Assembly (NCBI GenBank): GCA_950295325.1
Contig: OX485808.1
Location: forward strand, 22,218,527-22,282,526
Length of the DNA stretch: 64,000 bases
Direction of reading: 5' to 3'
From: Polytrichum commune
Lineage: Eukaryota > Streptophyta > Polytrichopsida > Polytrichales > Polytrichaceae
Below are positions 5,226-28,370 of the stretch, piece after piece (positions within the stretch are counted from its first letter, which is position 1; each line of letters starts with the position of its first letter). The notes under the pieces are model-generated. The model was given only the letters and a program-made list of their open reading frames with translations, searched no databases and had not been told where the DNA came from. A program made the position numbers and the translations under genes.

Positions 5226-5880
5226 TTGAGCACACATGCCAATTTCTTAAAATCATGCGTATTTTCTTGTATTTGTTCTTCAAGTCACCCCACATTCATG
5301 TCGCACACACCACACCATATTGGCTCAAATGGCGTCCCCACTGGAGAACATAAAGGTCAAACTCAAAACCTACTTACCTATATAAACAAGGAACACAAAA
5401 AAAATGACCTTGGACTAGCCACGGCTAGATTTACCTACGTTAAAAAATGGCTATCCAACAACGAAATCAACCACGAACTCTCAAACCACTTCACAAAAGC
5501 ACCAAGCATATTGGATGTGGAAATAACACGTACATTAAAATTCCGCTACGCTCGATATATAGGTAGTCACATGAAAATCTATTATGACCCACCACACACC
5601 CAAATCCAAATTGCACCCTATGGCCAAACAACACGATCAATACATGGCCATATGCTCTCCATATGCCCCGATAAACACATAAAAGGGCTATGCATTGCAT
5701 GTCATAACAATGCCATATACCAAATAGCACACACAAGATTCTCTACCCTATCCAATGCATACTAGGCACCTCCCAACAATAGCCAACTTCCCAACTCCCA
5801 ATCCCATCAAACACCATAAAATTCTTGGAATTCACTTACTACCATGATATATTCCCCGCCCTGCCATCCAAAAAAACAGG
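5226..5880 (+). pseudogene. Diverged LINE fragment (post-RNase H region)
   Basis: The frame 5,226-5,765 codes a peptide whose residues from about 40 to 120 resemble the segment after the RNase H of the LINE at 26.9-27.2 kb. Shared features include INHELSNHF versus IDNELSNEF, a run of K/R-rich helix before it, and KFRYARYIGSHMK versus KFRTGTYMGNARK. The copy is too diverged to belong to the same insertion. The frame is open, but the start codon is arbitrary. After 5,765 similar sequence may continue out of frame for about 100 bases. It is probably a truncated, decayed LINE 3' portion. Confidence 0.55.
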
Positions 5881-7230
5881 ATAAACATAACCCACTAATA
5901 TGATCATTACAAGACATGGGCTAGATATTCAATCCTCTTATAACCATCATAGTTGGTGTAAGAAGAGCCAACTAAAGTGATAGTGTTGATAGGAAACAGA
6001 TGAGGAGTTGCTAAGGGCTCCGTATTTTCTGGTATGGTGTGAGACTGTGAAGTAAGCCGCTGGAGACTAGTGCGTGTGCTGCCAGGAGCTGGCCTCGCAG
6101 TGACCCCGCATACACTAGATAACAGATGGTCAGGGTGCTTGAAGAGGTGATTGGATGTGTTGAGGGGTACCTGTGAATGCTTAAGTCCCAGATCTAGAGA
6201 CTCAAGCGTGTGTAAATGGTAGTTAGATCTCAAGAGAGAGTACTCTGAAAGAGCTGGGGCTATGATTGGTTGTGATTGAGATTAAAACTTCATTTTTGCT
6301 TGTAGTAATCTAAATCTGAGGTTTTTATGCAACACGGCGAGAGAGGTAGCAAACACCCAGGACTCGAGCACATTGATACTCCCGATCGTCACATTGTACT
6401 AGAATTACAGTTTTCAGCAATAGCCAGAGAGTCGCACAGAAGGCTCCTTTTCTCTTTCATTTATATCATTAATACATTTATCTTGCTTTTCAAACATAGC
6501 ATAGATGCATGTCCCCTAGATCTAGAACTAAACTCTTGTTACAAGCCCGATCCACTGGTGGGAGAACCATCGACCCAAGACAGTGGAGCGCAAGAAGGGG
6601 TCGTAGCAGAAGGCGGTGGAGGTTGCAGAAAGGGTGTCGTAGAAGAAATCCAAGGAGACTGCAAAAAAGACGACGCCCCACATCGAGACGTATGCAGAGG
6701 AGGAGTTACCTACAGCAAAATAGGCATACCTCGCACACACTACTATCAGGGAATAAAACAACATCAGAAAACCTGCGATTACACCGAATCTGGCACCGAG
6801 CTCACTGGACAACAAATCCATCACTGAATCAGAGGCAAGCGGCGTTGGATCGAAAAAGGAGCAACCTCCAGCAAACAAAAATCAGCAAGATCCTGTGCAA
6901 ATTGCGGAGAGATCCGAGACTACAGCGGAGAGTCACAAGTCGCCAAACAAAGAGATAGATTCACAGCGATCTACAGTAATCCCTACCTTCTACACCGAGA
7001 CAACGAGTGGAGCTGGAGAAGAGGCGGAGTAATCCCTAGCAAAATAGGCAGATCTCAAACACATTGTATTCGAGAAGGTGAGTAGCACCGAATCACCTGT
7101 GAGTGCACCGAACCAGAGAAAGGATAGCGGCGCCAGAGCAATCACAGCCCCGACATTGCAGATCCCACAAGCGGAAACAGACCCCGAAGCCCAAACTTAA
7201 CGGAGATGGCCGCGTCAAGACACGGGTAGA
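5881..7230. other. Unassigned region, possibly LINE 5' leader, with 320-bp repeat
   Basis: No gene is recognised with confidence. Near 6,705-6,800 and 7,028-7,115 two similar stretches (GCAAAATAGGCA followed by a CACCGAATC/GCACCGA block) lie about 320 bases apart, so part of it is a tandem duplication. On the minus strand an ORF at 6,528-6,821 codes two hydrophobic segments. On the plus strand an Arg-rich frame covers 6,509-6,958. Because LINE ORF1 begins just downstream, this may be the LINE's repeated 5' untranslated region, but that is inference. Confidence 0.3.
6528..6821 (-). CDS. Small ORF with two hydrophobic segments, doubtful
   Basis: A 97-codon minus-strand frame starting MDLLSSELG. 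Residues about 12-34 (VIAGFLMLFYSLIVV core) and 46-62 (WGVVFFAVSLDFF core) are hydrophobic enough to be membrane segments. No family is recognised. The opposite strand over the same bases codes a highly basic, Arg-rich frame, which is what a hydrophobic frame often casts, so either or both may be chance. It lies in sequence that also contains a 320-bp duplication and may be the leader of a retroelement. No splice partners are evident. Confidence 0.15.
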   Translation of the reverse strand: MDLLSSELGARFGVIAGFLMLFYSLIVVCARYAYFAVGNSSSAYVSMWGVVFFAVSLDFFYDTLSATSTAFCYDPFLRSTVLGRWFSHQWIGLVTRV

Positions 7231-7621
7231 TCACTCCATTGTCAAGTTGAACACCACGTGTGACCAAAAATAATCTTCTTTTGGTAAGTTGCACCACCAA
7301 AATGGGTCAAAATTTTATCAAATTATTTTCATGAGTAGATATACACAGTACCTATGACATAGTCAAAAGTGGTAACTAAATTTGATGATTTGTTTTTTTC
7401 ATAAAACATACCATTTCTAACTAGAATGACACAGAATTGAACTAAAACAATTACTAAAAAAAATAAAGATGACTAAAAATTTCAGAAAAGTATACAAAAG
7501 ATACTATCAATGGTTATGTATATGTAGAAAAAATATCATAAATTTTAAAATTATATATGACATGTAATATAGGGGTAGCAAACTTTGTCCGCACGTGGTG
7601 TCAACTTGACAATGAAGTGAC
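7231..7621. mobile_element. MITE with ~33-bp TIRs in the LINE leader
   Basis: The left end reads TCACTCCATTGTCAAGTTGA. The right end, on the reverse strand, reads TCACTTCATTGTCAAGTTGA, and both continue into CACCACGTG with a one-base indel. The total length is about 391 bases; the interior is AT-rich and non-coding. The sequence on its two sides (CGTCAAGACACGGG and CGTGCGTCAAGAGCCC) is GC-richer, as if the element had landed in one leader. Confidence 0.75.
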
Positions 7622-7725
7622 CTCCCCGTGCGTCAAGAGCCCCTCTCTGAGACAACAGCAACACGGAGGGAAGGGACCTGCTTCCAAAAACCCTAGCAAA
7701 GGTTTTTGGTGACGAGGAAGACATA

Positions 7726-10587: not shown

Positions 10588-12640
10588 CCCTCAACTCAAA
10601 ATACCTCCCACCTCATTCAAAAAACAATCTCCATACGAAATACGGTAGGTACCCAAAACACATACTCCATCCAACGAACGAATGTCATCCAAAACACATA
10701 TTTCATCCAAAACATAGTTCACACCCAAAACAAGCAACACATCCCAACTTAAAAACACTCCTACAAAATAAACTTCATCCTAAACACAACCCACATCCAA
10801 ACCCCAAACTTTGTCCCCTCTCAAAACCTAACTCCTATTCAAATCACAAAAGATACCCAAAGAGCAAAATGGCATCGGCCTACCGGCCTTACCACAAACC
10901 TAATTGCAAACACCACTTCATAAATAATTGGAAACCTAACTCAATAACAATTCAAATACCAACAAACCATGCAAAATTACACTCCGTACCCAAACAACCA
11001 AAAAACATTATACCCACCCTACCCAACATCCCTCCCATAACAAAACTTGCACTCATCAAATATCAGAAACCAAATAAGAAAAAACCAAAGATACTCAACT
11101 TATATAAATACTACCTCATTACATCAAGTATATCAAGTATGCATCAAAAACCTCGCACAATAACAACGTACATCCCTAAAGACAATACATATCCCCCCCC
11201 CCCTCACATCTAGACAATCAAGAAACATAACACACACCCTACCCAACCATAGTATAACAACTAAAACCGAACGCATAAAAAATCTAATAACACACAAAAT
11301 AAAGCCAAAAATCAACAAAACTAATACTAAATACCAACCCACAAACAAATGGAAACCTAACAAAATAACAAACCACACACACAAAGAATACACATACACA
11401 CACTCTTCACCCATACATTTAGGAAACATAAAACTACCCACACCCGTACCCATAAAACACCAAAAAATAAATAAAAATAAATCACAAACAATCAACCCAT
11501 ACCCATATCAAAACCTCAAACCCCACCCAAGACTTTGTCCCAAAGCACAACCTCACCCCCACAAAAAATACAAAATCTCACCCAAACACAAAACGGCCTC
11601 GGCCTACCGGCCTCGCCATAAAAATAATAACAAATACCACTTCACAAACAAAGGGGAACCTAATGCAATAACAAACCACACAACTAAAGACAACACACAT
11701 ACCCACCTTTTTCCCAAACAACTAGGAAACATTACACCCGCCCTACAATGTGATCACAGAATACCCCAACCCCACCCACAATACAAATCTCATCCAAGAC
11801 ATAACCCTCACCCAAAACACAATCTTCATCCAAAGAAAAAGCGTTATCCGAAATATAGAGTACACCCAAAACAGAGACTTCATCCGAAAAACAGATTGCA
11901 TCCAAGACACAAATACCATCCAAAGTATAATCCTCACTCAAAACAAGAAACCCAACCTAAATTAAAATCTCATCCACTGCATAAACTTCATCCTAATCAC
12001 AACTTGCATCCAAACCCCACACTTTGCCCCCAATCAAAACCTAACCTCCACTCAAAACACAAACCCTACCAAAAGAACAAAACGACCTCGGCCTACTAGC
12101 CTCGCCACAAAACAAACTTCATACACCACATCACAAACAAGTGGAAGCCTCACATAACCACAAACCATATACCTAAAGGCCACACACACACACACTTATT
12201 AACTAAACATAACACCCACCAAAACCACAAATCCCACCCCAAAACCCACCCCCACTCAAAATTAAACCCCCACACCAAACACAAACTTTACCCAAAAAAC
12301 AAGATGGCCTTAGTCCACCGGCCTCACCACCCAACAAATAACAAACGACACATAAAAAACAAACGCCCTAAACACAAACCCCACCCTAACCTCAAACCTC
12401 ATCTCAAACTTAACGTCCAGTTAAAATTCAACCCTCACTCAAGATACAAACCTTACCCAAAAAACAAAACGGCCTCAGCCTACCGGCCTCGCCACACAAA
12501 TAATAACTCATATCACCTCATAAACAAGTGGAAACCTAACTGAGTAACAAACCAAATACCTACAAATAATGCAAAGTCACACTTCTCACCCAAACAACTA
12601 GAAAACATCATACCTGCTATACCCAACCTCTTTACTACAG
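10588..12640 (+). repeat. A/C-rich LINE region with repeated modules (HPK-type units)
   Basis: Sequence with an approximate 18-base rhythm, variants of CATCCAAAACACAxxx. In the frame 10,560-11,213 it codes repeats such as HPKHIFHPKHSSHPK. A second landmark, GGCCTCGGCCTACCGGCCTC, recurs near 10,872, 11,595, 12,086, 12,305 (weak) and 12,471. Each is followed by a similar block (accacttcataaacaagtgg, then cccaaacaactaggaaacat), so the region is a series of higher-order units. In translation the landmark reads ASAYRPRH. Frames are broken by stops in every unit. It could be an ORF2 N-terminal repeat domain or 5' promoter monomers as in rodent L1. Confidence 0.65.
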
Positions 12641-12675
12641 CCAAATTCACAATCATAAAATATCAAAAAATAAAT

Positions 12676-13086
12676 ATGAAAAAACCAAAAACACTTCACC
12701 TCCATGGATACTACTTCATTAACAAAGTAGATCTGCTAAAATGCGGGGACATTGAACTCAACCCCGGACCAATGCCTAATATCTTACATACACATCCTGC
12801 TACACACAAAAAAAGAGCCAACTTATACTTTATTCCAAACACTATAAAACTACAACCTGAGTACCAACACATAGCAAATACATTCGCCCCCATACTAAAA
12901 TACACACACCCACTACACCCCCAGACAACCGCGACATACCCACATCTACACCAATATATCCAAATTCAAAGTCAATCACCACCAACCCATATGCTATACG
13001 CTCTTATCATTATCATTCACCCCTCAATAGACACATGCAATAATATACTAGCCCAACCCCAAAATTACCACTTTAATAACATATAG
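12676..13086 (+). pseudogene. LINE ORF2 N-terminus with 2A-like motif
   Basis: A 136-codon frame with DLLKCGDIELNPGP at 12,730-12,771. GDxExNPGP is the invariant core of 2A peptides, which make the ribosome skip the Gly-Pro bond and release two proteins. Only about 30 residues precede it in this frame, but the repeat region upstream may once have been continuous with it. Downstream residues are His/Pro/Thr-rich and unrecognised until the endonuclease begins near 13,426. 2A-like motifs close to the N-terminus of ORF2 are known from APE-type LINEs of animals. A degenerate copy of the sequence just before the motif occurs near 11,070-11,135, without the 2A core. Confidence 0.6.
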
Positions 13087-13425
13087 ACCAACACATTAAT
13101 CATTCGACTAGCTAACCTTACCAACCCCCCCAAGCGGCACATACTGACACCACACCCCTATACAATATTTATAGAAAACAATCAAGATATAATTCTCCCT
13201 AAAAACTCAATACATACAAAAATATATGAATTTATCCACAACCAAGAGACTACACCCACATCAATCACCCTGCAAAAAGAATTTCCCTTCCTTCCGAACC
13301 ACTTGATAACTGAAGCACTCAGATGTTTAGAAAACATTAACGAATACTCACATCCACCCCCACTCCTAGTTACTCCCCCACCAACCACAAGAATCAACAC
13401 CAACACCGAACATGAAACAAATATA

Positions 13426-14348
13426 ATAACATGAAACGCATCATCGCTCAATACTTCCTTACCAAAGTTACAAAGCCTAATAAACAATTCCCTAAACAAC
13501 ACAGCAATCATACATATCCAAGAAACCAAACTAATTGCAAACAAATCTACAAAATATATACAAAATCTATTCCCGGAATTCAAACTCATTTTTAACAACA
13601 CACATGCACTCACAAGGTGCATACAACAAAGAATGCCTTACACTCCCGGAAGAGGTGGCCTACTCACACTTATCCATCATAAATATGCATTCCCGGGGAA
13701 TGTCACCAAAATCCCCACACCAACAAACATCTCTCCATATCTACAAATAATAAAAATAAATAACCACCCACTAATACCTTGGTTAATCATACACATGTAT
13801 ATGCCCACGCACTTAGAAGACACATGTCTTATCCCACACCTTAAGAACGAAATCACTATACACCCCAATCACATATACACACTATGTGGTGACTTTAACA
13901 GAGATATTGCACTCAGGGGCAGACAAAATAACAACACTAACACCCCCCACAAGAAGAAGACTTCCAATGGAAAAACTTCACCACATCTCTTAACTTAGAA
14001 TATATTCAAACCAACACTAGTATCTCCAGACAAGGTGGCTACAACTACACATCAACAAGCCTAATAAATGGTTTCTACATTCACTCCCCAGACAACAACA
14101 AATTTACCTCCACTACAAACATAAACATGAATCTAAATTCAGATCACTATCCAGTCACATTACACATCCCACACAACACACTTCTAGCCAGACCCCCACC
14201 CCCTACAAACACCTCACCAACTAGAATACTGAACCCGATACCACCTGAAAACCTAGAAAAATTTAACAAAACATTCTTTGAAGAAAACTCCACTCAACTT
14301 AAAGTACTTACCACACTACTAGAAAAACCACCAACACTTAACATCTGA
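13426..14348 (+). pseudogene. LINE APE-type endonuclease domain, broken
   Basis: An exonuclease-endonuclease-phosphatase (APE-like) domain that nicks target DNA to prime reverse transcription. Motifs in order: NASSLN after an in-frame TGA at about 13,432 where Trp is expected, IHIQETKL with the metal-binding Glu near 13,522, GRGGLL near 13,644, LCGDFNRD with catalytic Asp/Asn at 13,888-13,899, and SDHYPVTLHIP near 14,139 with the Asp-His pair. The frame changes at least twice, near 13,600 and near 13,950, and there are stops, so no protein is made. It belongs with the RT downstream. Confidence 0.8.
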
Positions 14349-15049
14349 TCAATGGCAAGATGCTTGTACATCACTGGACTACATTATAAACCAAATGTCA
14401 AAAACAATTAAAAAAACCTGTTAAGCAGACCCACTACCCAACCTTACAACCAGAACATCGCAACAAGGTGGTTTTCTACCACGCAAACTAGCTAGAGAAT
14501 GGAAAAGACACCTCAACACATATCACCTCATCAGGAAAGCCATTTATATAGCACAACATGACCCACGTTGGGAAGTGCACCCCATCCTAAACGATATCCG
14601 AAACCACCAACACGTCAACATCCCGCACCCACCTGCTACAGCAGCATCTTCTGATGAATGGATTCACTCAATAGCGGCCATCGCAAAAATTGCAAATAAA
14701 GAAGCCAAAAAAATCACCACAAAATATACTAAAGACTGCATTCTAAAAGCCGTATCGAAATACCGCCAAATGTATGAAAAAACCCCAAGAAAATAAACCG
14801 AAAAGTCTTCAAAAACACTAAAACCTCACCTCTTGACTCCATCATTGATAGACAAAACAACATATTAACCAACCCTGAAAACATTGCATCAGAGATTTAC
14901 GCACAACAATCCATCAGTAACCGCCCAACAGTCCCCACATGCCACCATCAAAATACACATTCACTATACTATACATGTGGAGTCAGACAATACCCATGGC
15001 ACGACTTAGAAGGATACACAATTGACAAACGATGAGAACCCCAAATCCC
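14349..15049 (+). pseudogene. LINE linker between endonuclease and RT
   Basis: The region between the endonuclease and RT core of the LINE. A frame at 14,575-14,796 codes an Ala/Lys-rich helical segment typical of this linker. Several stops interrupt the frames. No separate function is seen. Confidence 0.5.
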
Positions 15050-17050
15050 CTTACATACATACTTTGATCAAGAAACCTACGACTTCTGTCTTAAAAACCT
15101 AAGTAATAACAAAGCCCCAGATCCAGACAAAATTTCCAACTCAATTCTAAAAAATATGCCTCCGCGCTTTCACAAATTACTTTTCTTATTCTTTAAGCAC
15201 TGCTATAACCAAAAACAAATTCCCGTATCATGGAAAACTAGCCTAACAGTTTTATTATATAAAAAATGTAACCTATCACAACTAACAAATCACAGACCTA
15301 TTGTACTAGCTAGCACCATATATAAACTTAGCACAAGTACACTAATGTCTATCCTATCAGCAGACGGAGAAAGATACCAAATACTACACGATAGCTAAGA
15401 AGGGTTCAGAGCAGAAAGAAACACCTCTAGACAAATCCAAATACTAATTGCAGCGCTTGAAGACGCAAGACTCATAAACCAAGATATATACATTCTTTAC
15501 ATTGACTTCAAATACGCCTTTGGCTCCATTGACCACGCCAGACTCTTAGCCATAATAAAAGACTTGGGTTACGCCAATGACTCAATAAATCTCATAGGAA
15601 ACATATACTCACAATCTTCAACCATATTTACTGGCGAATACTTCGGAAGAACCTTACCAATCCACATCCAAAGAGGTACAATACAAGGCGATATCCTTAG
15701 CCCATACTTATTTATCATATTTTTAGAACCCCTACTTAGATGGCTACAACAAGGAAACAATGGATATACTTTCGGTACGTCCAGAGTTAAAATTTCATCA
15801 GCAGTATATGCAGACGACCTTGCAGCAATCGCCAACAAACTAGAGACATTACAAACATAATTAAATAAACTAGACAAATTCTGCGAATGGGCAGGGATGG
15901 ACCTAGGAATACCAAAATGCGCAGTAACTGGATGCCCAAACAAATCTAAACTTAACCCCACAATCTTCAAGGCCTTAATCCAATCCACCAACATAAACTA
16001 TAAAAACCAACCTATACCAGTCCTAAACCAACACGAATCCTACACATACCTAGGAATAAATCTTGTACCATCATTCAAGTGAAAAACACAAATAAATACC
16101 ACTATAGCTAAAGTAATTAAACAATGTCAAGCCCTCGTAACATGCCCAGCTACTATGAAACAAAAAATCAACATGGTTGATACAGTCATACGCGCTGGAA
16201 TAGCATATAGTTTTTATGCAGTACCATACTCCATACCAGCCATAAAAAAACTTGACAAAAAAATCATCACACTCCATAAAACAATATGTGGAATACCCAA
16301 ATGCACATCTAATATTGCTACACAACTCCCCCACAACCTATTTGGAATTGAAGCATTTTCACTACAAAATGCCTACCTACGGTGTATTGGAGAGCAACTA
16401 CAAAACGCCCTTAACGATAAAGGCCGAATTGACAAAATTTATACCGGCCTAACGCAATTTATACTTGCCAAATACGGAGGTTCTAAAGAAATTACCCGTA
16501 TTAAATACCACCACTGTGTTAGATTACCTATCACTAAAATATTATTTCTGCTCAAGCATGAAGCCGGAGTCCACCTTAAAAGTACAATAAACAACTTCCT
16601 CCTACACCCATCCCCACTTGAAAACACGTGGATGCAAGAAGCACAAATGCTACAGGGTGTAAATCCCAACACCTCACTTAAACTATTACACAAATTGCTC
16701 ATACATAATATAACAACACTAGACCAAATTACCATGCCTAATGGCACCACACTAATGAACCTAGATGAATTCAAAATCTACCACTCCACCCCTTCCAAAC
16801 TCATCCAAAGTGCACTAGACATCGCTAATCAACTATTTTGCCAACCTCTCTGTAATCACGAATGCCCCCTACCATGCCAACGACACCATCCACCCAGATC
16901 CCTCAAAGACAAATATATACTAAGACACCACAACATTCTACCTCACCTACCGACTCCCCCCATACACCCCCCAAACCCTCCCATCCCCCCTCTACCCCCT
17001 CCCCCCAACAACATACTTAAGGACCCCCGACAATATCCCATATGTGGAAC
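15050..17050 (+). pseudogene. LINE reverse transcriptase and thumb region, broken
   Basis: Non-LTR reverse transcriptase copying LINE RNA at the nicked target. Visible blocks: NNKAPDPDKISNSILK (near 15,108), NHRPIVLASTIYKL (near 15,289), GFRAERNTSRQIQ (near 15,401), YILYIDFKYAFGSIDH with the first catalytic Asp (near 15,490), RGTIQGDILSPYLF (near 15,675) and YADD at 15,807-15,818. Stops fall at 15,396 (TAA), 15,858 (TAA) and 16,080 (TGA). A long frame at 16,155-17,087 carries the thumb and post-RT region and ends in a Pro-rich stretch. Similarity to LINE ends near 17,050, where the gypsy LTR region begins. Confidence 0.88.
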
Positions 17051-17119
17051 TAATTTTTCGATTTTTTTGAGGCCCAAGGAAAAATAAGTGTAAATAGGGG
17101 TAAAATATAACTAGTATTC

Positions 17120-18776
17120 TGTTAGGGTGTGTTAGGAGAGGGCCATAGTCTAGGAGATTTGAAGAATGGTGATTTGGAAAGACTATGGCCTGATAGGAGA
17201 AGTCACAGCCCTAAGGCCGGCCCATATAAAAGGTTGGTCAAGAAAGGAAGGAAGAGGCTGGGATAGCCCACAAGTAAAACCCTAGTCTTGTGAAGCAAAC
17301 TTTTGGTGATTAATATATGTCTTGATAAATGTGATAGACTTGAGAGTGAAGTGAGCAATTCCAGGGTGATTGTATTGGAAGAACTCTTCATTACATGCTT
17401 TGTGTGATTCCTGTGTGAGTGAAATTGTAATGCCATATAACTTTGAAGAAGAAATTGGATGACTGCAGTTGAGATGAAGTCGAATTTCTCACTGTCTATA
17501 GTCTCTGTGTTAGCGAGTCTATAGTCTGATTGATGCTTATGAAATGTCAAGTTTATGTGACTTTCAATTCTGAGAGAAGGGTGTGAATGTCTTCCCTTAT
17601 GATCTGAAGTCTTTGTGTGTGTAATTGAAAATTGGTGTATGTCTTAAGCATGCATTTGAGTAATGATCTATTATGTGATAAGTTGATGGTTATGATTGAA
17701 AAGCATTGGTGCTTCTAAGGATATGAATTCCCTGAGAGAAGGAAGGGCAATAAATTTTGATTGATCCATTGTAAGTGCATAATGTGAAATTATGCATATA
17801 ATTACTTTAAGTCTATAGACTGGAGAGGATAGATTTCCTCGTAATACTCAATTCTTTTGTGATTGTGTAGAATGATGAAATCATAAGTGGGTGAATGCAA
17901 TGATATATCTGCTTGTAGGTTGATTGTGTGTGAAACTCGACTTATGATTCAATGCCTTAATTGTGGATAATTGAGGGATTGTGAGATAATGAAGATCCTT
18001 GGTAAATTCTGACCTTCATTATCCCTTTCTTATCTTTGTGATGATAATGCTTATGGGGAGATGAACTTAATTGTATATGAACATCCAAGTTGAGTGCATT
18101 GACCATAGTCTTGACATGTTTATTTATTCCCGTGGGAATTATGCAGTCAATAGCCTTTAACCATAAACAAAAACCTTTGCTGTATATGATTCTGACCATT
18201 GCCAGGAGTGATTCCCGCGACGACGTGGCTGAACAGAGAATATGACAGAGTGGATGCGGATAGACTTGGAGGCTTTGTGATAGATTGGTATGCATTCCAG
18301 ATCATGTAATCTCGTAAATTAAAACCAAAATTTGGTAAGTGAAGACAGCACAGACCTTTCAAGTTACACTAAAAAGGGAGTAATTAACAAGAGACTATGG
18401 ATGGAACCAAAGTGTCATTGGCTTTGGTAGTCAGACTAAATGGATAACTGATGGAAGGCTATGGACTATGGCTACGCCTATGCTTGTGCACCACACGTGG
18501 TCCAAATTAAAATGAACTCACTGCCAGACAATTGCCTGGGAAATTAGAGGGAGGTGTGAGACTGTCACATTTGCATGTACTGACATGAAGTGTTTTTTAG
18601 AGTTTTTATCCCTTACCCGTACACTAATTGTGAGTCATAATCCAAAACGAAGTGATATAACCTTGTGTTTTCCCTAATAAAACTTATCTAAGACACCTAG
18701 ATGATATACAAGTCACCTTTTAAGTCTTCCCTGAGTGTTTTCCCGGGTTTTGTTCGTACCCAAAAAACTAACTACA
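17120..18776 (+). mobile_element. Ty3/gypsy 5' LTR (approximate)
   Basis: Placed between LINE sequence and the primer binding site. It would begin TGTTAGGGTGTG at 17,120 and end CTAACTACA at 18,776, a TG...CA unit of about 1.66 kb. The true left end could be up to 75 bases earlier. No 3' LTR copy exists in the window, so the boundaries rest on the LTR convention and on the adjacent primer site. No coding frame of note lies inside. Confidence 0.6.
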
Positions 18777-18779
18777 TTT

Positions 18780-18797
18780 TGGCGCCGCTGCCGGGGA
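18780..18797 (+). promoter_or_regulatory. Retrotransposon primer binding site, tRNA-Asp type
   Basis: TGGCGCCGCTGCCGGGGA lies three bases after the presumed LTR end. It complements the 3' end of plant tRNA-Asp(GUC) with one mismatch. This primer is used by Athila/Tat-type plant gypsy elements. It marks the start of the internal region. Confidence 0.85.
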
Positions 18798-18990
18798 AGG
18801 CTTCGGTCGATTTAAGTCTAGGTAGATAAGTCTGTTAGGAAAAACTGATAGGCTTGGATTTTGAATAAGGAATTTAAATTAAAATCTTTGGGTGATTCAA
18901 GAAAGTAAAGAAACAAGTTGATAGTTGTTTCTGAAACTTTTTCACAATCCTAAAGTATTAATTTGAATTCGCAGTTATATCAAAAACCAA

Positions 18991-20158
18991 ATGCCTAGAG
19001 ATACAACCACATGGCTTATTTATGGATGAACCTAAAATATGGAAATCTAGAGGTCATCGTAATTCTTTAAATTACCCTTTAAAATATACACCCTTTGGAC
19101 TTTCCGAGAGTACCTCGGGAGAGTTAAACCTTGTCGGCTTCGAGGAAGCCGTTGAGAGAATTGTCAAGCGAGTTTGTAATTGTCATCTAGAAACATCAAC
19201 TGACTCGTTATGTGAAAAGAAACAAATTGAGAGTGCCTGTCAAACGGAATCATATCCTCAAATAGTGTGTGGGACTTGCAAAGGTCTAGGACATTACTCG
19301 ACGGATTGTGAATTGAACAAGCTTAAGTCTAAAGCTAAAAGTGTGGGAAGGTGGCAATCAAAAGTGTCAACCCATACAGTTGGGACACAAACTGACGCTT
19401 TATGAGCGTGTTGCTCATAACGCTAATGTGTCAGTTTCCAAAATGTGGCCGTGGGAGCTTAACCCACAAGGGTTGAGCACCCTTGATAGTGAGTTATACA
19501 AAGGGCCACATTTGTTTACAACTTTATATCGTTTTTATAAAGCATCATTTTGGGGAGTTGGTATCCACATTGGACCAAACCACCCAATCTATCCCAAAGG
19601 ATTTGTAGCTAACTTCCTTAATTTACCTACCCACCTTCAAGAGAAAATTTTGGCAAAGATTTGGAATAATGGTGAGGGTTTTAATGAAGTCATTATTAAC
19701 AAAGGTTATCCGAGATTGAGAGTTGACTTGAGATTCTTGTTTCTCGTTTATAGCCAACACAAAACTGAAAACTTCCCGATTAACAAATTTGGTTACGGTT
19801 GTTGAAGCGGAGGGCTTTTTACTAGCACTGACGCTCGTTTTTACTATGGACCTTTTGACCCTTGCGTAAGTGTCAATATACCAGACTTTTCCGATTCTTC
19901 ACTTCAAGGCAAGAACTTTGTAAACTTTGCAAAATTGTTCTTGAATGGGAGAAGGCGGATTGTAAAACACGATCGGCAAGGTAGGACATAGGGGTTGTTT
20001 ACGTATGATCCCATGCAACCTCCATACAGGAAACCGCACATGAAAGATCACACGCACAAACACCCTCAGTAAGAAAAGCAGCCAATGACAAGGCTAGAGA
20101 GGATCGTGCACTTGCTAGGGCTTATCAGAAGAAGAAAGTTGAAAGAAGAAATAGTTGG
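18991..20158 (+). pseudogene. Gypsy gag N-terminal extension, frameshifted
   Basis: An ATG at 18,991 (MPRDTTTWLIYG) opens a frame that ends within 13 codons. Matching coding sense continues in another frame at 19,022-19,405, including a zinc knuckle CGTCKGLGHYSTDC near 19,279. It moves to a third frame at 19,341-19,805 (WGVGIHIGPNHPIYPKG) that continues beyond a stop to about 19,990, and returns near 20,045 to the frame of the main Gag. I do not recognise a function for the region between 19,400 and 19,990. It looks like an extra N-terminal domain of a long Gag, broken by indels. Confidence 0.5.
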
Positions 20159-21388
20159 TTGAGGTCTGTCATTAAGTTGCAAAAAGAACAGTCTGACACT
20201 GAACCAAAGGTAGCAAGTCGAAACCCTACAGAACATAAAAGTCAAGAGGAGACATTATCACCTCTTAAACCTCAACAACTTTATTTTGGTTCAACTTCAG
20301 ATAGTTCCCAAGTAGTGACACCTCAACACCCCTTACTTCCTTCTTATTCGACACCTCCACCCTTACCAACCCCAATAGTAATACAACCTTTTATACCACT
20401 ACCTTTACCGTTACCAGCACCCCCAGTTATAATGGCTAATATACTTGGTGCCCCAAGAATTCACAATATAGTACATATACCTTATTTCCTTGGGAGACCA
20501 GGATCAGATCCTGATACTCATGTAGCAAAGTTTGAAATTACATGCCAGGCTAATGATGTCCCGGCTGCTAAATTTCAAGAAGTATTTGTTGCGTCACTGC
20601 AAGAGGATGCCTTTGCATGGTATCAGAGACAACCCGCATTTGCTAATTGGAATGCATTGAAGAATGCATTCCTGGCTCACTTTAGGCCTTTAGGCTTTGC
20701 CACGAGTCTAAAAGAAAAATTGCGAACTATTAGAATGGGCATCAACGAGAGAGTTGATAACTATTATGGCAGGATGCAAGATATCTTGCAACGTATGGGA
20801 AATCATCAAATCCCAGATGATTTCCTTATGAGCATATTTATCGGTGGTTTATATCCGATGGAGTTGAGAACTTATGTTAAGGAAGGAGCCACCGCTACAT
20901 ATGCACAAGCTTACGCGAGAGCAAAAACTTGGGAGGAATGTAGATTGGAAAATGAATTGGTACTCTACACTGATAATACTTATTCCAATAACCCCATACC
21001 TTCACATTCGGGAATTTTTCCCATCACTGAGAATAATCAGTATTATGTCACAGATGCACCGTATGTGCGAAACCCCATTGCACAGTTGTATACACAACCG
21101 GCAGTTAACAAGGCTCCTCAACAGGATCCCACGAGTGATAAATACGATAATGCTATATGGAATCTGACAAAACAATTGTCAGAATTGTCAGTCAAGGTAG
21201 CCAATAATAGACCTAAGAGACCTCAACCCACAGAAGAGCGACATAACGTGTGGTGTCATAACTGTAAAGGTCAAGGACACCTTGCTAACGAGTGCCCTAC
21301 CCCAAAAGGGTTTAGAACCAAATGTATATTTTGTGGAGGGAATCACGCAGCCAATAATGTTGGAACCTTAAGCAACAAAAGGTTGTGA
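20159..21388 (+). pseudogene. Ty3/gypsy Gag
   Basis: The capsid/nucleocapsid polyprotein of the LTR element. After a Pro-rich stretch (near 20,330-20,440) comes a retrotransposon Gag domain: IPYFLGRPGSDPDTHVAKFE, AFAWYQRQPAFANWNALKNA, and NYYGRMQDILQRMG. A CCHC knuckle CHNCKGQGHLANEC (near 21,253) and the start of a second (CIFCGGNH, near 21,328) follow. The frame then breaks at about 21,358, apparently by one lost base, so this knuckle's last Cys is not read in frame. The reading continues in the next frame from 21,385. Confidence 0.88.
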
Positions 21389-23334
21389 ATCAGGTCGAGA
21401 GTGGTCAATCTCGTCCTTGGCAACAAGAGCGAAATGCACCAGGACCCAATGCCAGTTACAATCCTAAAAGGAATTTTAGCCGTCGTCCCGTACCCTTGAA
21501 TTTTCAGGGATGTTCCAACTGGAATACACGGAATAATTCTTCTAATTGGAACGGAACCCCCTCCTATAATCAAAATTATCAGAGGTTTGATTCAAACCCT
21601 GAGGATTCAAGGAAATATCCTGTGTGTTATAGATGTAAGGAACTAGGTCATTATGCCAACAATTGTCCAAATCCTAAGAAACCACAGGATTATGTTCTTT
21701 TGTGTGGTAACTGCAAGACGGCAGGACACCCCACAGATGAGTGTCTCCATCCTAAGAAGGATTACCCTCCCAATGAGAGAGATTGGAAGAAGGGAAAACG
21801 TGTGAGAATCCAAGATCCAGATGATGAGGAGGAAGCTGCTAGAAATGTGAACCACATTCAACATTTTTCTACCCCATCATCAAGGGAACAGAAGGTCAAC
21901 GCTGTAATAACTAGATCTAAGGCCCCACAAACACCTTATCCAATTATTGATGAAAATAGTAGCGAGCCGAGTGCTGAGGAACTACGAGATGATATACATG
22001 AAAATGATCCAAAAAACAAATTATTGGTGGAACCTAATGCGGTGCCTAGGGCTAATCTCATACCCACGGTACCGCCAAGGGTCGAACTGGTCCAGCCAGT
22101 ACCTATATCTTTTCCGCCACTTCCGACACCTCCAACACCTCCAAGACCATATACTATCTTGGAGAGGACATCACCATCAACTATCCCACAAAGTAGACTT
22201 ACGGAAGTCAAGTCCAAACCTTTACCTTATCAAACCCCGCATGTAAGGAATTTAAAGTCCAAAGCAAGTTCAAGGCAACCTCGAACAATGGAATTAGCTA
22301 AAGGACTTCAACAGTATGACATCATGAAAGACTTAGATAATCTACGTCCTCAAATTACGATGAGGCAACTATTGGCGATTGCACCTCAATGTCGTACCAC
22401 ACTTGGTTCGGCCATGATCCGCAAAAGAGCTAAAGTGGTAGAAGTTAATGACGTGACCCTTAATCAAGATCATGGCGCACCAGCAGTGGATGTAATAATT
22501 GATGGAGTCATGGTGGCTGGATTTCAGGTTGATACCGGTTCCAGTGCCAATCTTATGAGTATGGAAACAATGGAAGAATTAGGACTCACTAACATGGTTC
22601 CTACTTCTATCATTCTTAAAATGGCCGATCATACACGTACTAAGCCCTTAGGTCAATTACCACAAGTACCAGTCCAAATTGCGGGTCGGGAATACAAAAT
22701 TGATTTTGTTGTATTCCGGACCACAGATGCTATACAACCTATACCGGGAATATTGGGAAGACCGTGGTTGATCATAGCAGAAGCCAAAGAGGATTGGGGT
22801 AAAGGTACCCTAACATTAGGCAAAGGCAAGGATAAAATGGTCTTACCTTTGTTTCCTACCCGATACCAAGGAGAAACTCAGGATGAGGGAACTGAATTCA
22901 CAACTGATGGATATGAGACCGAGTCGGATGATACTCCAATTCAGGCTATTCATAATATGGGTAGACACCAGAGAGCATATAATCCAATAGGGATAGGAGA
23001 ATATTTCATCTCTATGAAGGATGATGATTATGATAATGCCATTTTGAGTTGGCAGAATTCTTGTCCAGTTAATAATGTTACCACGGTTGCTGAACCACAA
23101 CCTCAGGGTAAAACCTTATTAACACCTAACCCTAAGAAACAATCTACCCCATTAAAAGAACTTGAGAGTAAATTACCATCTTTTGAGGAAGAATGGGAGG
23201 ATGCCATGTTCTCTTATAACGCACCCATCAAGAGTTATGTGTCTAAAGATGTTTACAAAGAAATGAATTTAGGAACCAAAGAGGTTCCTAAGATCATTAA
23301 AGTACATGAGAAATTATCCAAGACTGAATGGTAG
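21385..23334 (+). pseudogene. Ty3/gypsy nucleocapsid knuckles and aspartic protease
   Basis: A 649-codon frame continuing Gag. It has two more CCHC knuckles, CYRCKELGHYANNC (near 21,628) and CGNCKTAGHPTDEC (near 21,700), an acidic and Pro-rich linker, and a retropepsin-like protease with GFQVDTGSSANLMSM (near 22,520) and ILGRPWL (near 22,750). The protease cuts the polyprotein. The frame stops at 23,334, just before the RT, with a TAG. Three or more knuckles per Gag is unusual but known in large plant gypsy elements. The frame itself is long and clean. Confidence 0.88.
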
Positions 23335-24755
23335 TATTGGTATAATTTCTTCAAAAGAAATATTAAAGTATTTGCGTGGACTTATAAAGATTTGCGAGGG
23401 GTCCCTCCTGAAGTATGTGAACACAAGATAGTACTTGAGGAAGGAACTGCCCCCGTAAGACAAAAACAATACCGCATGAATCCCAAATATTCTCTAATGG
23501 TCAAAGAAGAAATAGACAAACTTCTTGAGGCAGGATTCATATATAAAGTACCTTACAGTGAATGGGTATCCCCTATTGTCGTAGTTCCAAAAAAGAATGG
23601 AAAACTAAGGATATGCCAAGACTTTAGGAAATTAAATAGTGTCACCAGGAAAGATTATTTCCCTCTACCTTTCACTGACACTATGTTAGATGGGGTAGCC
23701 GGGTATAAACGCTACTCTTTCATGGATGGATTTTCAGGGTACAATCAAATTCAAATTTTTAAACCACATCGTTGGTATACCACTTTCACCACTGACTGGG
23801 GTACTTTTGCTTATATAGTGATGCCATTTGGATTATGTAATGCCCCAGCTACTTTTCAACGTGTCATGACCGAACCTTTCAAGACTATCTTTGTAAATTT
23901 ATGGAAATATTCTTGGATGACTTTGCAGTTTTTGGTGACGATAAGCATCATGCTGATTATCTCCAAAAATGTTTTGATAAATGTATGGAATTTGGTATTT
24001 CCATCAACGCCGCTAAGTCAGTCTTTTTAGTACCATTTGGAAGGTTAGTAGGACACATTGTATCTGAACAAGGAATAGCTACTGATCCTGATAAAATTGC
24101 AAATATTGTGTCTTTACCGATTCCTACCACTATCACTGAGGTCAAAGGATTCCTGGCACATACAGGTTATTATAGACGATTTATTTTCCGATATGCAATA
24201 ATCGCAATGCCCTTGACATAACTGCTTAAGAAAGGTGACGAGGCTCCAGTTTGGACTTCTGCATGCACTCATGCCTTTAACACACTAAAAAGAAAATTAG
24301 TGTCAGCTCCAATCCTTATACCCCCTAATTGGGACAAAGATTTTCACATATTTGTTGATGCATCCAATGTAGCAATTGGATCGGTTCTCAGTCAGAAAGA
24401 CGAAAATGGACATGACCATCCTATTTACTTTGCTAGTCGTCAGTTGGTGCAAGCTGAGCAAAATTATACTGTCACGAAACGTGAGGCTTTAGGAATGATA
24501 TTTTCAGTCCAGAAGTTCCGGCATTATTTCTTGGGGAATAAATTTGTATTCCACGTAGATCATGATGCATTGAAATATATGATTAACAAACCTTAGTTGA
24601 GTGGAAGAATCGCGAGATGGGTGTTCCTTTTGTAAGAATTCAACTTCACAGTTGAAGTTAGACCTGGCAAAAGTCATGACAATGTTGACCATCTTTCGAG
24701 ATTAAACGAGGAATCTGGATCTGAACCCATTGATGATTCATTTCCAGACGCCCAA
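23335..24755 (+). pseudogene. Ty3/gypsy reverse transcriptase and RNase H, broken
   Basis: RT blocks: PVRQKQYRMNPKY, SEWVSPIVVVPKKNGKLR, CQDFRKLNSVT, YSFMDGFSGYNQI with the first catalytic Asp, VMPFGLCNAPATFQRVM, and IFLDDFAVFGDD with the Asp pair. The last lies in another frame after a break near 23,897. RNase H follows from about 24,340: VDASNVAIGSVLSQ, YFASRQL, TVTKREALGMIFSVQKFRHY. Stops occur at 24,219 (TAA), 24,594 (TAG) and 24,633 (TAA). Most can be reached from sense codons by a C-to-T or G-to-A change. The whole is dead. Confidence 0.9.
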
Positions 24756-25387
24756 TTGTTTTACATTGATGTGATCTCTCATGAGTATGCGGAAATAATT
24801 GAATACCTACAAAGTAACAAATTTCCTATGGACTTTACTGAGAAACAAAAGAGTCGATTGATTTTTAAAGCCGTGTCTTACACCATTATTGCTGACACCT
24901 TATACAAGAAAGGGAAGGATGATGTTTTAAGACGTTGTGTCACTAGTTCAGAAATCCCTTTGATTTTAAAATAATGTCACGATAATATGGCCGGAGGTCA
25001 TTTTGCATGAGATGTCACGGCTAGAAAAATATTGCAAAGTGGTTATTGGTGGCCTACCATTTTTGCTGATTGTATGACATACACTGGACAATATGACGTT
25101 TGTCAGCGAATAGGAAAACCAACGGACTCGTCAGCAATGCCACTGACCCCAATACTCGCCTTAGCACCATTTGAAAAGTGGGGAATTGATTTTGTTGGAC
25201 CTATAAACCCTCCCAGTCATCATGGGAGATATCAGTACATTTTGGTGGCCACAGACTACGTCACTAAATGGGCGGAGGCTGAAGCTACTAGAAAAGACGA
25301 TAAACATGTCGTAGCAAAGTTTATGCGAGAAAAAATATTATCACGTTATGGGTGTCCGAAAGAATTAGTGAGTAATCGAGGGATATA
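24756..25387 (+). pseudogene. Ty3/gypsy integrase, truncated
   Basis: Covers the region before and including the integrase N-terminal zinc finger (His residues near 24,980-25,005, then DVCQRIG at 25,096) and the start of the catalytic core, WGIDFVGPI with the first Asp (near 25,180) and VATDYVTKWAEAEATRKD. The second core Asp, normally in SDRGT, is Asn here (VSNRG, near 25,370). The sequence then passes into LINE at about 25,385. The third catalytic residue, the C-terminal domain and the 3' LTR are missing. Stops are present at 24,972 and 25,008. Confidence 0.85.
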
Positions 25388-26403
25388 GAGACACGAGATA
25401 TGTCATAACTACCACAATAATCCCACTAGCACATATCTCTATTAATGAATGTAACCCAGAAAATGACATCGAAACCAACTCCGATACTATCCAAATACAA
25501 TTTGACGTCGCTCACATATACGAAGATAATGGTAGGCACCTCATCACCATCCCGAAAACCAGACTAATGTGGTTATGGAAACAATACCAATTGGCAAAAA
25601 ATACCACACATGGTCTAGAACCGCCCACCCAATCTTTCGAAACCGAAATTGTTTGGTTATATCAAAGATACAAATACCGAATTCCGAAAAATGACCCACT
25701 CAAACGTGCCCAATATACAATACCAACCCCAATATTAGATCTCCTAATAACCACATTCAATATCAACCAGTCATACTTCTCATCCCCAGTGACATGCCCC
25801 ACGCAACTCACCCAATTCTACTCGTCATTCTCACGTGACATAATATTTGGATCCTTAGGGAAAGCATTTGACCACAAATGGCAAGGAATAGGATACGCTC
25901 ACCCCCACAACGCAACAGACTTACAACAAGCCATTCACTGGGCTCGCATGGCGGCCCAAAATGATCCATATACAATCACTATACTTATATCTCCGGATAC
26001 CGACTGGTACAAAAACCCAAACCCGTACATAGGTCCATTCATGGACACACACATCATTGCCCACTTTGCAGCCGATACGATTACATATGAAGAACCCACA
26101 ATACCTCCCAAACTCAATATTATAAGAAAAAAACCGTCTACCCTACAAATATTTTGTATCCACCACCAAAACAATAACATAGGCACCTATGAACAAATGA
26201 AATTACTAAAGGACATAGCAGACAATCTCCAAATATTACAAAGCCACACCCAAATTGCACCACCCACCCCTTCAAACATCACAATGAACTCTAGTAAAAA
26301 ATGGTCTAAATCAAATTACCCAAATATACCCCCAAACAATAACATCCCCACCCCACAACTCCCAAACTACCAAACAAACCTACCACTAAAATTCCACCCC
26401 TAA
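25388..26403 (+). pseudogene. LINE ORF2 segment with PCIF1-like methyltransferase domain
   Basis: The frame is open from about 25,381 to the stop at 26,403. Residues coded at about 25,770-26,130 read as the PCIF1/CAPAM catalytic fold (PF12237 type): SYFSSPVTCP, then IIFGSLGKAFDHKW with the family's FGSLG block, GIGYAHPHN at the place of the catalytic NPPF loop, AIHWARMAAQND, and ITILISPDTDWYKN like the strand-plus-Trp block. PCIF1 makes m6Am on capped mRNA. Here the NPPF-like motif reads AHPH, so this copy, and perhaps the family, would not methylate. The segment lies immediately before an RNase H domain of the same strand and style. The family call is from memory of motifs, not a search. Confidence 0.55.
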
Positions 26404-27312
26404 TTCAGCTACTACACTGGTGGCTCCTTGATGAAACCCAAAGAAATAGCCCTTGGGGAATGGAGAAGAGAAAGAGTTGGATATGATATCTACAGTCCCA
26501 AAGGGCTAAACATCGCCAATAGATTACATAGACATCAAAACATATTACGAGCAGAAATGATTGCTATACACGAAACACTAAGCATTATCAACACACAATA
26601 TCCCAACGAACCCGCATTTATATTCACAGACAGTCTAAATGTATTATACCTATTTAACACTCAAATTAAACACCCCACACTGCATAATAGTCACCCAGAC
26701 CAAACCACACTAGCCTCCATGGTAAAAATTCTTCAAAAAATGACACAACCAATTACACTATACAAAGTTAGAGCACACGTCAACATTGACGGCAATGAAA
26801 AAGCAGACAAACTAGCAAAAGAAGGATTAAAATTAGAGCACAGAATTGCCGCCCACCCATACGAACATGCCCACGCCACCCCTTACTATTACCAAAAAGA
26901 CGTATGGGCCTCAATGGAAGACGTTCCGGACAAAGGCCCAGTTAGATTCCTAGAAAAACAAATTAAAAAATATGATAGGGAAACGAACCTAGCAATCATG
27001 GCCACACAAACCCCCAACACCCGTAAATGGATAGAAAACATAGATATAGACAACGAGTTGTCGAACGAATTCTGGACAAATCCCGCTATCACCGACAAAC
27101 AAAAATCATGCCTCATCAAATTCCGCACAGGAACCTACATGGGTAATGCGAGAAAACAAATGTTTTTTGGCCACCAAAGATTTCCCACTATCACGTGCCC
27201 CATATTCAACTCAAATGAACCAGATACATGGATACATGTAAACACCAACATATACACTCACTTAGAGTTAAAAGATATAACAAAGCAGTCGAAGAAATTA
27301 GGAAGCTCCTAA
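26404..27312 (+). pseudogene. LINE RNase H domain, first Asp lost
   Basis: RNase H1-type domain that removes the RNA strand after target-primed synthesis. It starts YYTGGSLM at 26,410; the family has TDGS, so the first catalytic Asp is Gly (GGT at 26,419). Other blocks are intact: ILRAEMIAIHETLS (Glu), AFIFTDSLNVLYL (Asp), and VRAHVNIDGNEKADKLAKEG (final Asp). The frame runs on through a basic helical region (VRFLEKQIKKYDRE) to a zinc-finger remnant CPIFNSNEPDTWIH near 27,199, in which a Cys appears replaced by Phe. It shifts frame near 27,230. Confidence 0.8.
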
Positions 27313-27860
27313 TCTCATCAGAAAAATCCCGATGCTTTACTCTCATGAATGTTGGCACCTTCAATAACAACCCCCAAGAAAACACAATCCCCAATTGGCT
27401 ACTCCCCTGCACATGTAGTACACAAAGATGTCACTGCAACGCAAGATTTAGACCTGATATCCTCTGTGTTAAAGGACTACCATATCAAAATGCCCCTCCC
27501 AGCGATGTCGACCCTAACCTTACCATACAATTCATTGAATTCACATACTGCAATGACAGATTCTCCCCATAAGCAATTGAAGCAAAAAATAACAAATACA
27601 ACCCACTAATTGCTAGCATTGCTTCCAAAGGATGGAAAATCGAACCACTTATTGTCATCACTGCTGGTGCCAGAGCGACTGCCCACATCCCATCTATGAA
27701 AGCACTAGAGACCAACTTCAAAATACCTATGGCCACCATCAAAAATACTTTCAAAAATATTAACACCATTGCAATACAATATGCTATGTCTATTCTCCTC
27801 CATAAAAGGAGAATTGAAAACCACCAACCACTCCCCCAAAATCCAGACCCCCCATAACTC
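27228..27860 (+). pseudogene. LINE C-terminal restriction-like endonuclease candidate
   Basis: After the zinc-finger remnant the reading continues in another frame: HIHSLRVKRYNKAVEEI, a Cys-rich stretch CTCSTQRCHCNA, then RFRPDILCVKG (RPD at 27,450-27,458), IQFIEFTYCNDRF (Glu at 27,537), a stop TAA at 27,570, then KNNKYNPLIASI and EPLIVITAGARA. A zinc finger followed by (R/K)PD and (D/E)xx is the arrangement of the restriction-like endonucleases of R2-type and Dualen LINEs. The gap between PD and E is longer than in R2. The helical end (ALETNFKIPMATIKN) reaches about 27,860. The nuclease role is inferred from motifs only. Confidence 0.5.
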
Positions 27861-28073
27861 AGAACTTAAAAGTTAGGGTAAGGGGCAAGGGGTATTATAT
27901 TAGGCGTAGTTTACATTACTGGTTTCTTGTATCTAAAGTGTCTACTCTCGAAAGGGGGGAGTAGATCTTCTCCTTCATACCTCTGTCCTGTGGGCTTGGG
28001 ATTGAAGGTAGATCGAACAGACACTTAATTCACGTCAGTCTCCTTCGGAGACCGAAGTTGTTATTATTATTAA
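27861..28073 (+). other. LINE 3' UTR, terminal hairpin and TTA tail
   Basis: About 200 bases after the last LINE codons end in a perfect hairpin GTCTCC-TTC-GGAGAC at 28,038-28,052, followed within ten bases by TTGTTATTATTATTAA. A 3' hairpin next to a short simple repeat is what the RT of stringent-type LINEs recognises. It fixes the 3' end of this LINE and its plus orientation. Confidence 0.65.
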
Positions 28074-28370
28074 GAAGAGCCATACATGAACACTCAACAC
28101 AAGCACGAAAACAACTCAAAATCCCACCAATTGAAATAAAGAAACTCATGAAGAAAATCCACCGAATATCCATAAAATAAATTACATACCTAATATTAAA
28201 CAAGAGAAAGCTAGACACCAAACAAGCCCATGTGGAACACCCTTGGAGGTACCCCCCACCATCAGAACGGATGGAAGTAACCTTAACTTGAAGTTTGGTA
28301 AAACACGATCAAGTTAAGGAAGAACGGGTTCCCATTCACGTCAGTGGCACAAATACACTGATGTTGCTTT
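28074..28370 (+). pseudogene. Second LINE 3' end fragment
   Basis: Translation gives STQARKQLKIPPIEIKK and MKKIHRISIK, a stop, then ILNKRKLDTKQAHVE. This parallels the last coding block of the preceding LINE (ALETNFKIPMATIKN ... ISILLHKRRIENHQPL in type). It then reaches ATTCACGTCAGTGGCAC near 28,334, matching the ATTCACGTCAGTCTCC just before the hairpin of the first LINE. It is therefore a truncated relative lying head-to-tail with it, or the resident copy into which the first one inserted. Confidence 0.55.

Follow-up and report, generated by a model that had tools for sequence, protein, structure and literature searches.

The 64,000-nucleotide stretch of Polytrichum commune DNA analyzed here (contig OX485808.1, positions 22,218,527 to 22,282,526; hereafter the window) contains a single, damaged copy of an unusually large retrotransposon without long terminal repeats (LTRs), i.e., a long interspersed nuclear element (LINE), which occupies positions 5971–28071 and is split by gypsy-type DNA. 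The element has a first open reading frame (ORF1), an overlapping ORF2 in another frame with an ordered series of domains, target-site duplications (TSDs), simple tails, a predicted 3′ hairpin and a pattern of selection along ORF2, all detailed below. We consider it quite probable (about 0.8) that this LINE, some 12 kb long when intact and present in the window as a broken copy, is autonomous, has been active recently and would replicate by the mechanism proposed in the last section. The features of the window copy are the following (aa, amino acids; strand in brackets).

5960–5970 (no strand): left TSD, AAGAAGAGCCA, exact repeat pair
5971–7650 (+): putative 5′ untranslated region, partly repetitive, colinear with copy L008 extended by L029
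7651–9429 (+): ORF1, open frame of 592 aa, same order in L008
10551–12681 (+): ORF2 leader, repeat-rich, in several frames
12682–12771 (+): 2A/StopGo motif with context, ...VDLLKCGDIELNPGP
12772–13431 (+): conserved N-domain after 2A, stop at 13084, 87% aa identity to copy L001
13411–14192 (+): APE-type (EEP) endonuclease, stop at 13432, frame change near 13945
15030–15953 (+): reverse transcriptase (RT), stops at 15033, 15396 and 15858
16083–17043 (+): region after the RT (thumb/linker), at least 120 genome matches
17044–25386 (+): inserted DNA with gypsy-type gag, protease and RT
25411–26175 (+): PCIF1-like domain, PF12237, NPPF position reads HPHN
26380–26835 (+): RNase H, PF00075 (E = 1.9e-11), stop at 26401
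27165–27270 (+): CCHC finger, degraded, second Cys lost and frameshift in the window
27333–27779 (+): motif block RPD...EFTY...K of a putative R2-type restriction-like nuclease, TAA at 27570
28028–28060 (+): predicted 3′-terminal RNA hairpin
28061–28071 (+): simple 3′ tail, TTATTATTATT, (ATT)n
28072–28082 (no strand): right TSD, AAGAAGAGCCA, exact repeat pair

The genome (408 Mb) has four SAM_LFY (LEAFY-type) matches and 28 NAC-domain matches, the latter pairing into about 14 sets of two parts; this fits a land plant, and so few NAC matches hint at a bryophyte. It was searched with each half of the copy. At least 120 matches were obtained with the RT half and at least 118 with the PCIF1 half, the window included, and in 72 of the 120 RT-half matches listed a PCIF1-half match lay 1.1–1.3 kb downstream on the same strand. 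Fifteen copies of the PCIF1 region were fetched by a non-random choice: L001–L008 because their frames are long or because they are close to the window, L012–L013 because the RT list showed them with long frames, and L017–L021 from the PF12237 list. All domains stand in one open ORF2 in seven of the fifteen, with lengths of 2625 aa (L001, L002 and L003, which are near-identical copies), 2663 aa (L004), 2924 aa (L005), 2372 aa (L012) and 2919 aa (L017). These seven span four families or subfamilies, and the remaining eight are interrupted by stops or frameshifts. The order in the single-ORF2 copies is leader, 2A, N-domain, APE-type endonuclease, RT, PCIF1-like domain, RNase H, CCHC finger and RPD...E block. 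It is the same in diverged families, such as those of L012 and L013, whose identity to L001 is about 63% in the RT and 43% in the PCIF1 region. The sequence-only reading of this DNA had joined the two halves into one element and had named a continuous ORF2 with all domains as what would support this; the seven copies provide it, and the unity of the halves is further borne out by the pair spacing, by the one TSD and by the one interrupted target described below.

Copies L001 and L002 share 99.55% identity across 11.9 kb, and in both ORF2 opens 22 nt before the end of ORF1, in a different frame. TSDs were present in all four copies tested (11 bp in the window copy and in L008, 12 bp in L001 and L002), those of L001 and L002 being perfect. 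The 3′ tails are simple and not poly(A): (ATT)n in the window copy and L008, (TATC)n in L001 and L002, and also (CTT)n among the copies. Just before the tail, a predicted hairpin is common to seven sequences (window, L007, L001, L002, L005, L017 and L018), with changes on both sides in 3 of the 10 pairs of the seven-row alignment, and, in a separate set of single-sequence folds, each of seven sequences forms a hairpin (z-scores −1.9 to −5.0). A nine-row alignment gave no structure; the stem appeared once the rows of L012 and L013, which belong to the families that have diverged furthest, were removed. The 3′ ends of these two each fold into a hairpin alone, with pairs not identical to those of the seven-row stem. 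The 5′ end of L001 was inferred from its TSD, about 600 nt ahead of the similarity to L002. At bases 1683–2002 of L001, in its joined, element-oriented stretch, the 5′ end consists of variable-number tandem repeats, resembling promoter monomers.

The ratio of nonsynonymous to synonymous substitution rates (dN/dS) was taken from the pair L001–L005 alone, as other pairs were near synonymous saturation and were not relied on. It was 0.10 for the 2A segment (24 codons), 0.07 for the EEP domain, 0.06 for the RT, 0.10 for the PCIF1 core, 0.05 for RNase H and 0.11 for the zinc finger plus nuclease, versus 0.53 for the leader before 2A and 0.38 for the linker after the PCIF1 core. Because their ratio is low compared with leader and linker, the PCIF1-like domain and the 2A segment are probably kept by selection.

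Enzymatic domains and relation to known LINEs

The APE-type endonuclease that had been read at 13.4–14.2 kb was confirmed: both Exo_endo_phos_2 and Exo_endo_phos were recovered (E ≤ 1) in each of the nine aligned copies (for Exo_endo_phos_2, best E = 5.4e-10; L001 at 1.4e-4, under the family cut-off), which also carry the motifs WN, QET, GDFN and SDH, and among solved structures the matches were to ExoIII (best E = 0.0004). The RT was equally recovered, with RVT_1 at E = 1.8e-15 on the open piece of the window RT and YADD in 7/7 aligned copies; the closest solved RTs are those of R2Bm and R2Tg (E = 1e-29). RNase H, expected at 26.4–26.9 kb, was also found, and PF00075 lies between the RT and the C-terminal block in L001, L005, L012 and L017.

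Across copies, the C-terminus reads CxxC-x9-H-x4-C, then CxC...CxC, K/RPD, EFTY and K, with C12, C15, H25 and C30 invariant in the CCHC alignment and one Cys of CxC...CxC altered in the broken copy L007. The zinc finger of the sequence-only reading is thus conserved among copies but degraded in the window itself. Its PD-(D/E)xK-like block stood as to motifs, since RPD...E is conserved and follows the CCHC finger, but gave no significant profile match; motif conservation and position suggest a second nuclease.

In a tree of 13 RT rows, the element contributes six, which all group together (100/100); a second group (100/98) unites three plant L1 with one human L1. A plant L1 origin of the RT was therefore rejected, and an RT inside the plant L1 clade, looked for as evidence against a separate lineage, was not seen. 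R2 joins the side of the element in this tree, which has no Dualen row; as the tree is unrooted with long branches, we limit the claim to "not L1" and make no use of the sister relation with R2. Plant L1 LINEs also have an APE nuclease and an RT and occur in the same genome (L014–L016), but their RTs group separately, and a scan of the copy L014 showed zf-RVT, with neither PCIF1_WW nor RNase_H at E ≤ 0.1. L014:3282-8816 is an ordinary L1, whose ORF2 of 1845 aa has a long C-terminal extension beyond zf-RVT.

R2, which inserts into ribosomal DNA, is not known to possess an APE nuclease, an RNase H, a 2A or a PCIF1-like domain, whereas the window and L008 copies lie in other LINE copies. Shared with the R2 group (R2Bm, R2Tg) are, besides the closest solved RTs, a CCHC finger, an RHNK stretch after it whose alignment with R2Bm is weak (E = 1.3), and then the RPD...E block. 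L1Tc/ingi and the animal LINEs with 2A are APE-only elements of trypanosomes and animals. An in-frame 2A-like motif has been reported in them, according to the available text of two later papers (Heras 2006, Odon 2013, cited in PMC4981915, PMC12846837).

The element is most suitably classed with the Dualen/RandI LINEs of green algae, as a land-plant variant of them; the comparison was made by published description. Scans of ORF2 (L001, L005, L012 and L017) and of ORF1 (frames of L012 and the window) matched no protease family, whereas the abstract of the Dualen paper reportedly lists a cysteine protease. As far as the available descriptions go, Dualen/RandI combine an APE-type and an R2-type nuclease, an RT and RNase H in one element (PMC4640811, PMC3636483), a set that recurs here with a putative R2-type nuclease, and algal RandI has simple non-poly(A) 3′ tails, (ATT)n and (CTATTT)n (PMC3747384). 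The host differs, a land plant instead of green algae, and neither a 2A nor a PCIF1-like domain placed between RT and RNase H is mentioned in the accessible parts of these descriptions (PMC4640811, PMC3636483, PMC3747384). Given the same unusual set of enzymes and similar tails, it is a real possibility, though in our view the lesser one, that nothing but the host is new: the algal members would then already carry the same 2A and PCIF1-like domain, unannotated, and this would be an ordinary representative of Dualen/RandI. No open-licence paper was found that pairs PCIF1 with Dualen or RandI, which argues the other way, weakly, as the original Dualen paper lay outside that scope. Also, in the open-licence literature (titles, abstract starts and term counts), we found no PCIF1 domain in a LINE and, among the best matches, no plant LINE with 2A.

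The 2A motif and the PCIF1-like domain

A 2A-like motif had been noticed at 12,745, and the window translation indeed has the 2A-type core GDIELNPGP at 12745–12771. A motif of this kind is present in 15/15 fetched copies as well as in the window, and the core (D/G/C/N)(V/I)ExNPGP with its upstream context in the window and most copies. The residue at the Glu position of 2A is E, H (the form carried by L012 and L018), K (L004–L006) or Q (the first of two L012 motifs). In the genome, the E/K codon pattern had 272 matches (146 + 126) versus 0 + 0 for the reversed pattern, and the His form 68 (36 + 32) versus 0 + 0. A listed PCIF1 match lies 3.5–7 kb downstream on the same strand for 51 of the 100 listed E/K sites, versus none of the 100 at the mirrored upstream distance. 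Two motifs per copy were seen in L013:1432-2322 and L012:2112-2637. More decayed duplicates of the 2A module occur upstream in L018, L020 and L021.

According to the accessible part of a StopGo survey, the Glu position is almost exclusively E, and H variants are active (PMC12846837). Where 2A requires Glu, Lys stands in L004–L006, of which L004 and L005 have a fully open ORF2, and also in 6 among the first 100 pattern matches on the list, as might be expected if the NPGP motif were a fossil or an accident of the lineage and ORF2 yielded one unsplit protein. We find this unlikely, since the motif has a dN/dS of 0.10 (24 codons only) versus 0.53 before it, since it is duplicated in L012 and L013, and since the context DLLK..GDIExNPGP of the window, L007 and L008 resembles the FDLLKL of a tested F2A peptide, as given in the available text (PMC12846837).

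The PCIF1-like domain had been taken for a methyltransferase-like fold, and it is the homology that stood. PCIF1_WW matches the window at 25609–25893 (E = 3.3e-10), PF12237 was found in 10/10 aligned copies at E ≤ 0.01, the motifs SSP.TC and RD..FG..G are invariant in all ten, and, judged by sequence, homology to PCIF1/CAPAM, the cap adenosine methyltransferase, spans the helical and core region. The NPPF position, however, reads AHPH, AHPP, AHPK or AFPT in all ten, and the alignment with the PDB places ahPkn of the element beneath the NPPF of PCIF1. The Asn missing there is catalytic in PCIF1. Thus, for a domain without NPPF, "methyltransferase" denotes homology and not activity, and the replacement of this motif in every aligned copy makes binding likelier than methylation. 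Unlike PCIF1/CAPAM, this domain sits within a retrotransposon polyprotein and most likely binds rather than methylates. A working N6-adenine methyltransferase with an altered active site, marking the RNA of the element (e.g., its first nucleotide) or its complementary DNA, would agree with the strong purifying selection (dN/dS 0.10) and with the invariant motifs, but NPPF is replaced in all ten copies, and we regard this activity as improbable, slightly more so than an unsplit ORF2 product.

Whether the PF12237 matches stem from a host PCIF1 gene was examined on three candidates (L024, L022 and L023, ranks 1, 9 and 11 of 150); all three are fragments of the element, and for them this origin was rejected. 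No host PCIF1 gene was found among the 150 candidates scored out of 698.

Extent and setting of the window copy

The sequence-only reading had set the borders at 10588–28073, which is too narrow. A perfect 11-bp direct repeat, AAGAAGAGCCA, brackets 5971–28071 (it occurs exactly twice in the window, against an expectation of 0.05 from shuffles), so that ORF1 is included. L008, extended by L029, is colinear with 5996–28068, with main blocks 90–97% identical; the first 25 nt or so of the 5′ untranslated region are not common to L008, the repeat-rich 11188–12438 is matched in pieces only (74–78%), and colinearity is broken by the gypsy-type insertion and by a loss of about 257 nt of LINE at its junction (17043/25387). 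In ORF1, DNA identity to L008 is 97%, and aa identity is 39% to the ORF1 of L001 and 27% to that of L012. The window ORF1 matches no Pfam family at E ≤ 0.01, and the N-domain after 2A matches no known family.

No LTR pair was detectable in the gypsy-type DNA at 17044–25386, and the LINE sequence resumes within its pol region; it is therefore not a simple full insertion. To the left of the copy, 5285–5929 encodes residues 2044–2305 of a decayed L012-like ORF2 and, to the right, 28073–28261 encodes residues 2316–2372 of an L012-like ORF2, also decayed and on the same strand. One L012-like ORF2 is thus interrupted on both sides, which indicates a single insertion into an older relative. A chimera of two elements, with halves from separate LINE families brought together by chance at the gypsy-type insertion, has the arrangement in the window as its sole support and can practically be dismissed, as uninterrupted copies exist, the 72/120 pairs keep their spacing, one TSD surrounds the whole and the same target sequence lies on both sides. 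The L008 colinearity and the TSDs of the other copies tested led to the same rejection, and no sign of different families was seen in any of these data.

Elsewhere in the window, 36307–38248 and 59758–61755 are host genes, with parts of a Uso1/p115 tether and a weak match to the Ge-1 decapping scaffold (E = 0.0021, under cut-off). Rfam at gathering thresholds gave no match over the whole window.

Proposed replication and meaning

We infer the following steps from the domains and their conservation. ORF2 would be translated as one chain, and ribosomes would skip the Gly-Pro bond at 2A, so that the repeat-rich leader of a few hundred residues would be freed from a replicase of about 2300 aa. The replicase would recognise the 3′-terminal hairpin of its own RNA; hairpin and simple tail together suggest a start of reverse transcription specific to that RNA, as in other LINEs. 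The APE-type nuclease would nick the target DNA and reverse transcription would be primed there (target-primed reverse transcription), RNase H would remove the RNA template, and the putative R2-type nuclease or the CCHC finger may aid second-strand cleavage or target capture. For the PCIF1-like domain, which kept its other motifs and lost NPPF, the likeliest role is therefore that of a non-catalytic binder, of the RNA 5′ end (cap-proximal) or of S-adenosylmethionine (SAM), which would favour full-length, capped RNA of the element.

Besides the Lys variants of 2A, several observations speak against this scheme. The first in-frame ATG of ORF2 lies, in L001 and L002, about 125 nt beyond the ORF1 stop. 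For 3 of the 10 hairpin pairs, pairing fails in one or two of the seven aligned rows, and the covariation was assessed without a shuffling control. The nuclease block profile had no PDB match at E ≤ 10, and with the finger region added the finger part alone met R2Bm, at a non-significant E = 1.3. For the PCIF1-like domain, the top PDB matches of the profile are PCIF1 itself (6irx/6irv) and weak (E = 0.0031 and 0.062), and in L012 scanned whole the match falls under the Pfam cut-off (27.4 vs 31.1 bits). Single-sequence structure predictions of the PCIF1-like and nuclease domains had a mean predicted local distance difference test score (pLDDT) of 35 and 39 and were unusable. Finally, no relatives were found in the viral contigs and prokaryote genome contigs, the only collections scanned for them.

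With odds a little short of even, we tentatively propose that the element represents a new land-plant LINE lineage, which would unite an RNA-end reader derived from a cap methyltransferase, a two-nuclease replicase and a natural 2A/StopGo site, and may inspect or alter the 5′ end of its own RNA, either ahead of integration or in the course of it. It would then be the first natural StopGo user of plants in the literature searched. A plant genome with hundreds of StopGo-type codon motifs contrasts with plant viruses, in which natural StopGo use is absent according to the available text of a 2026 survey (PMC12846837). Selection on a PCIF1-derived domain that has lost NPPF suggests that retrotransposition is connected with mRNA cap biology; no paper on such a connection was found in the open-licence literature. 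The two-nuclease Dualen group has been cited, in the part of the source available, as evidence that APE-type LINEs arose by replacing an R2-type nuclease (PMC4640811), and a young, multi-copy lineage in a land plant makes this two-nuclease kind testable beyond the algae.

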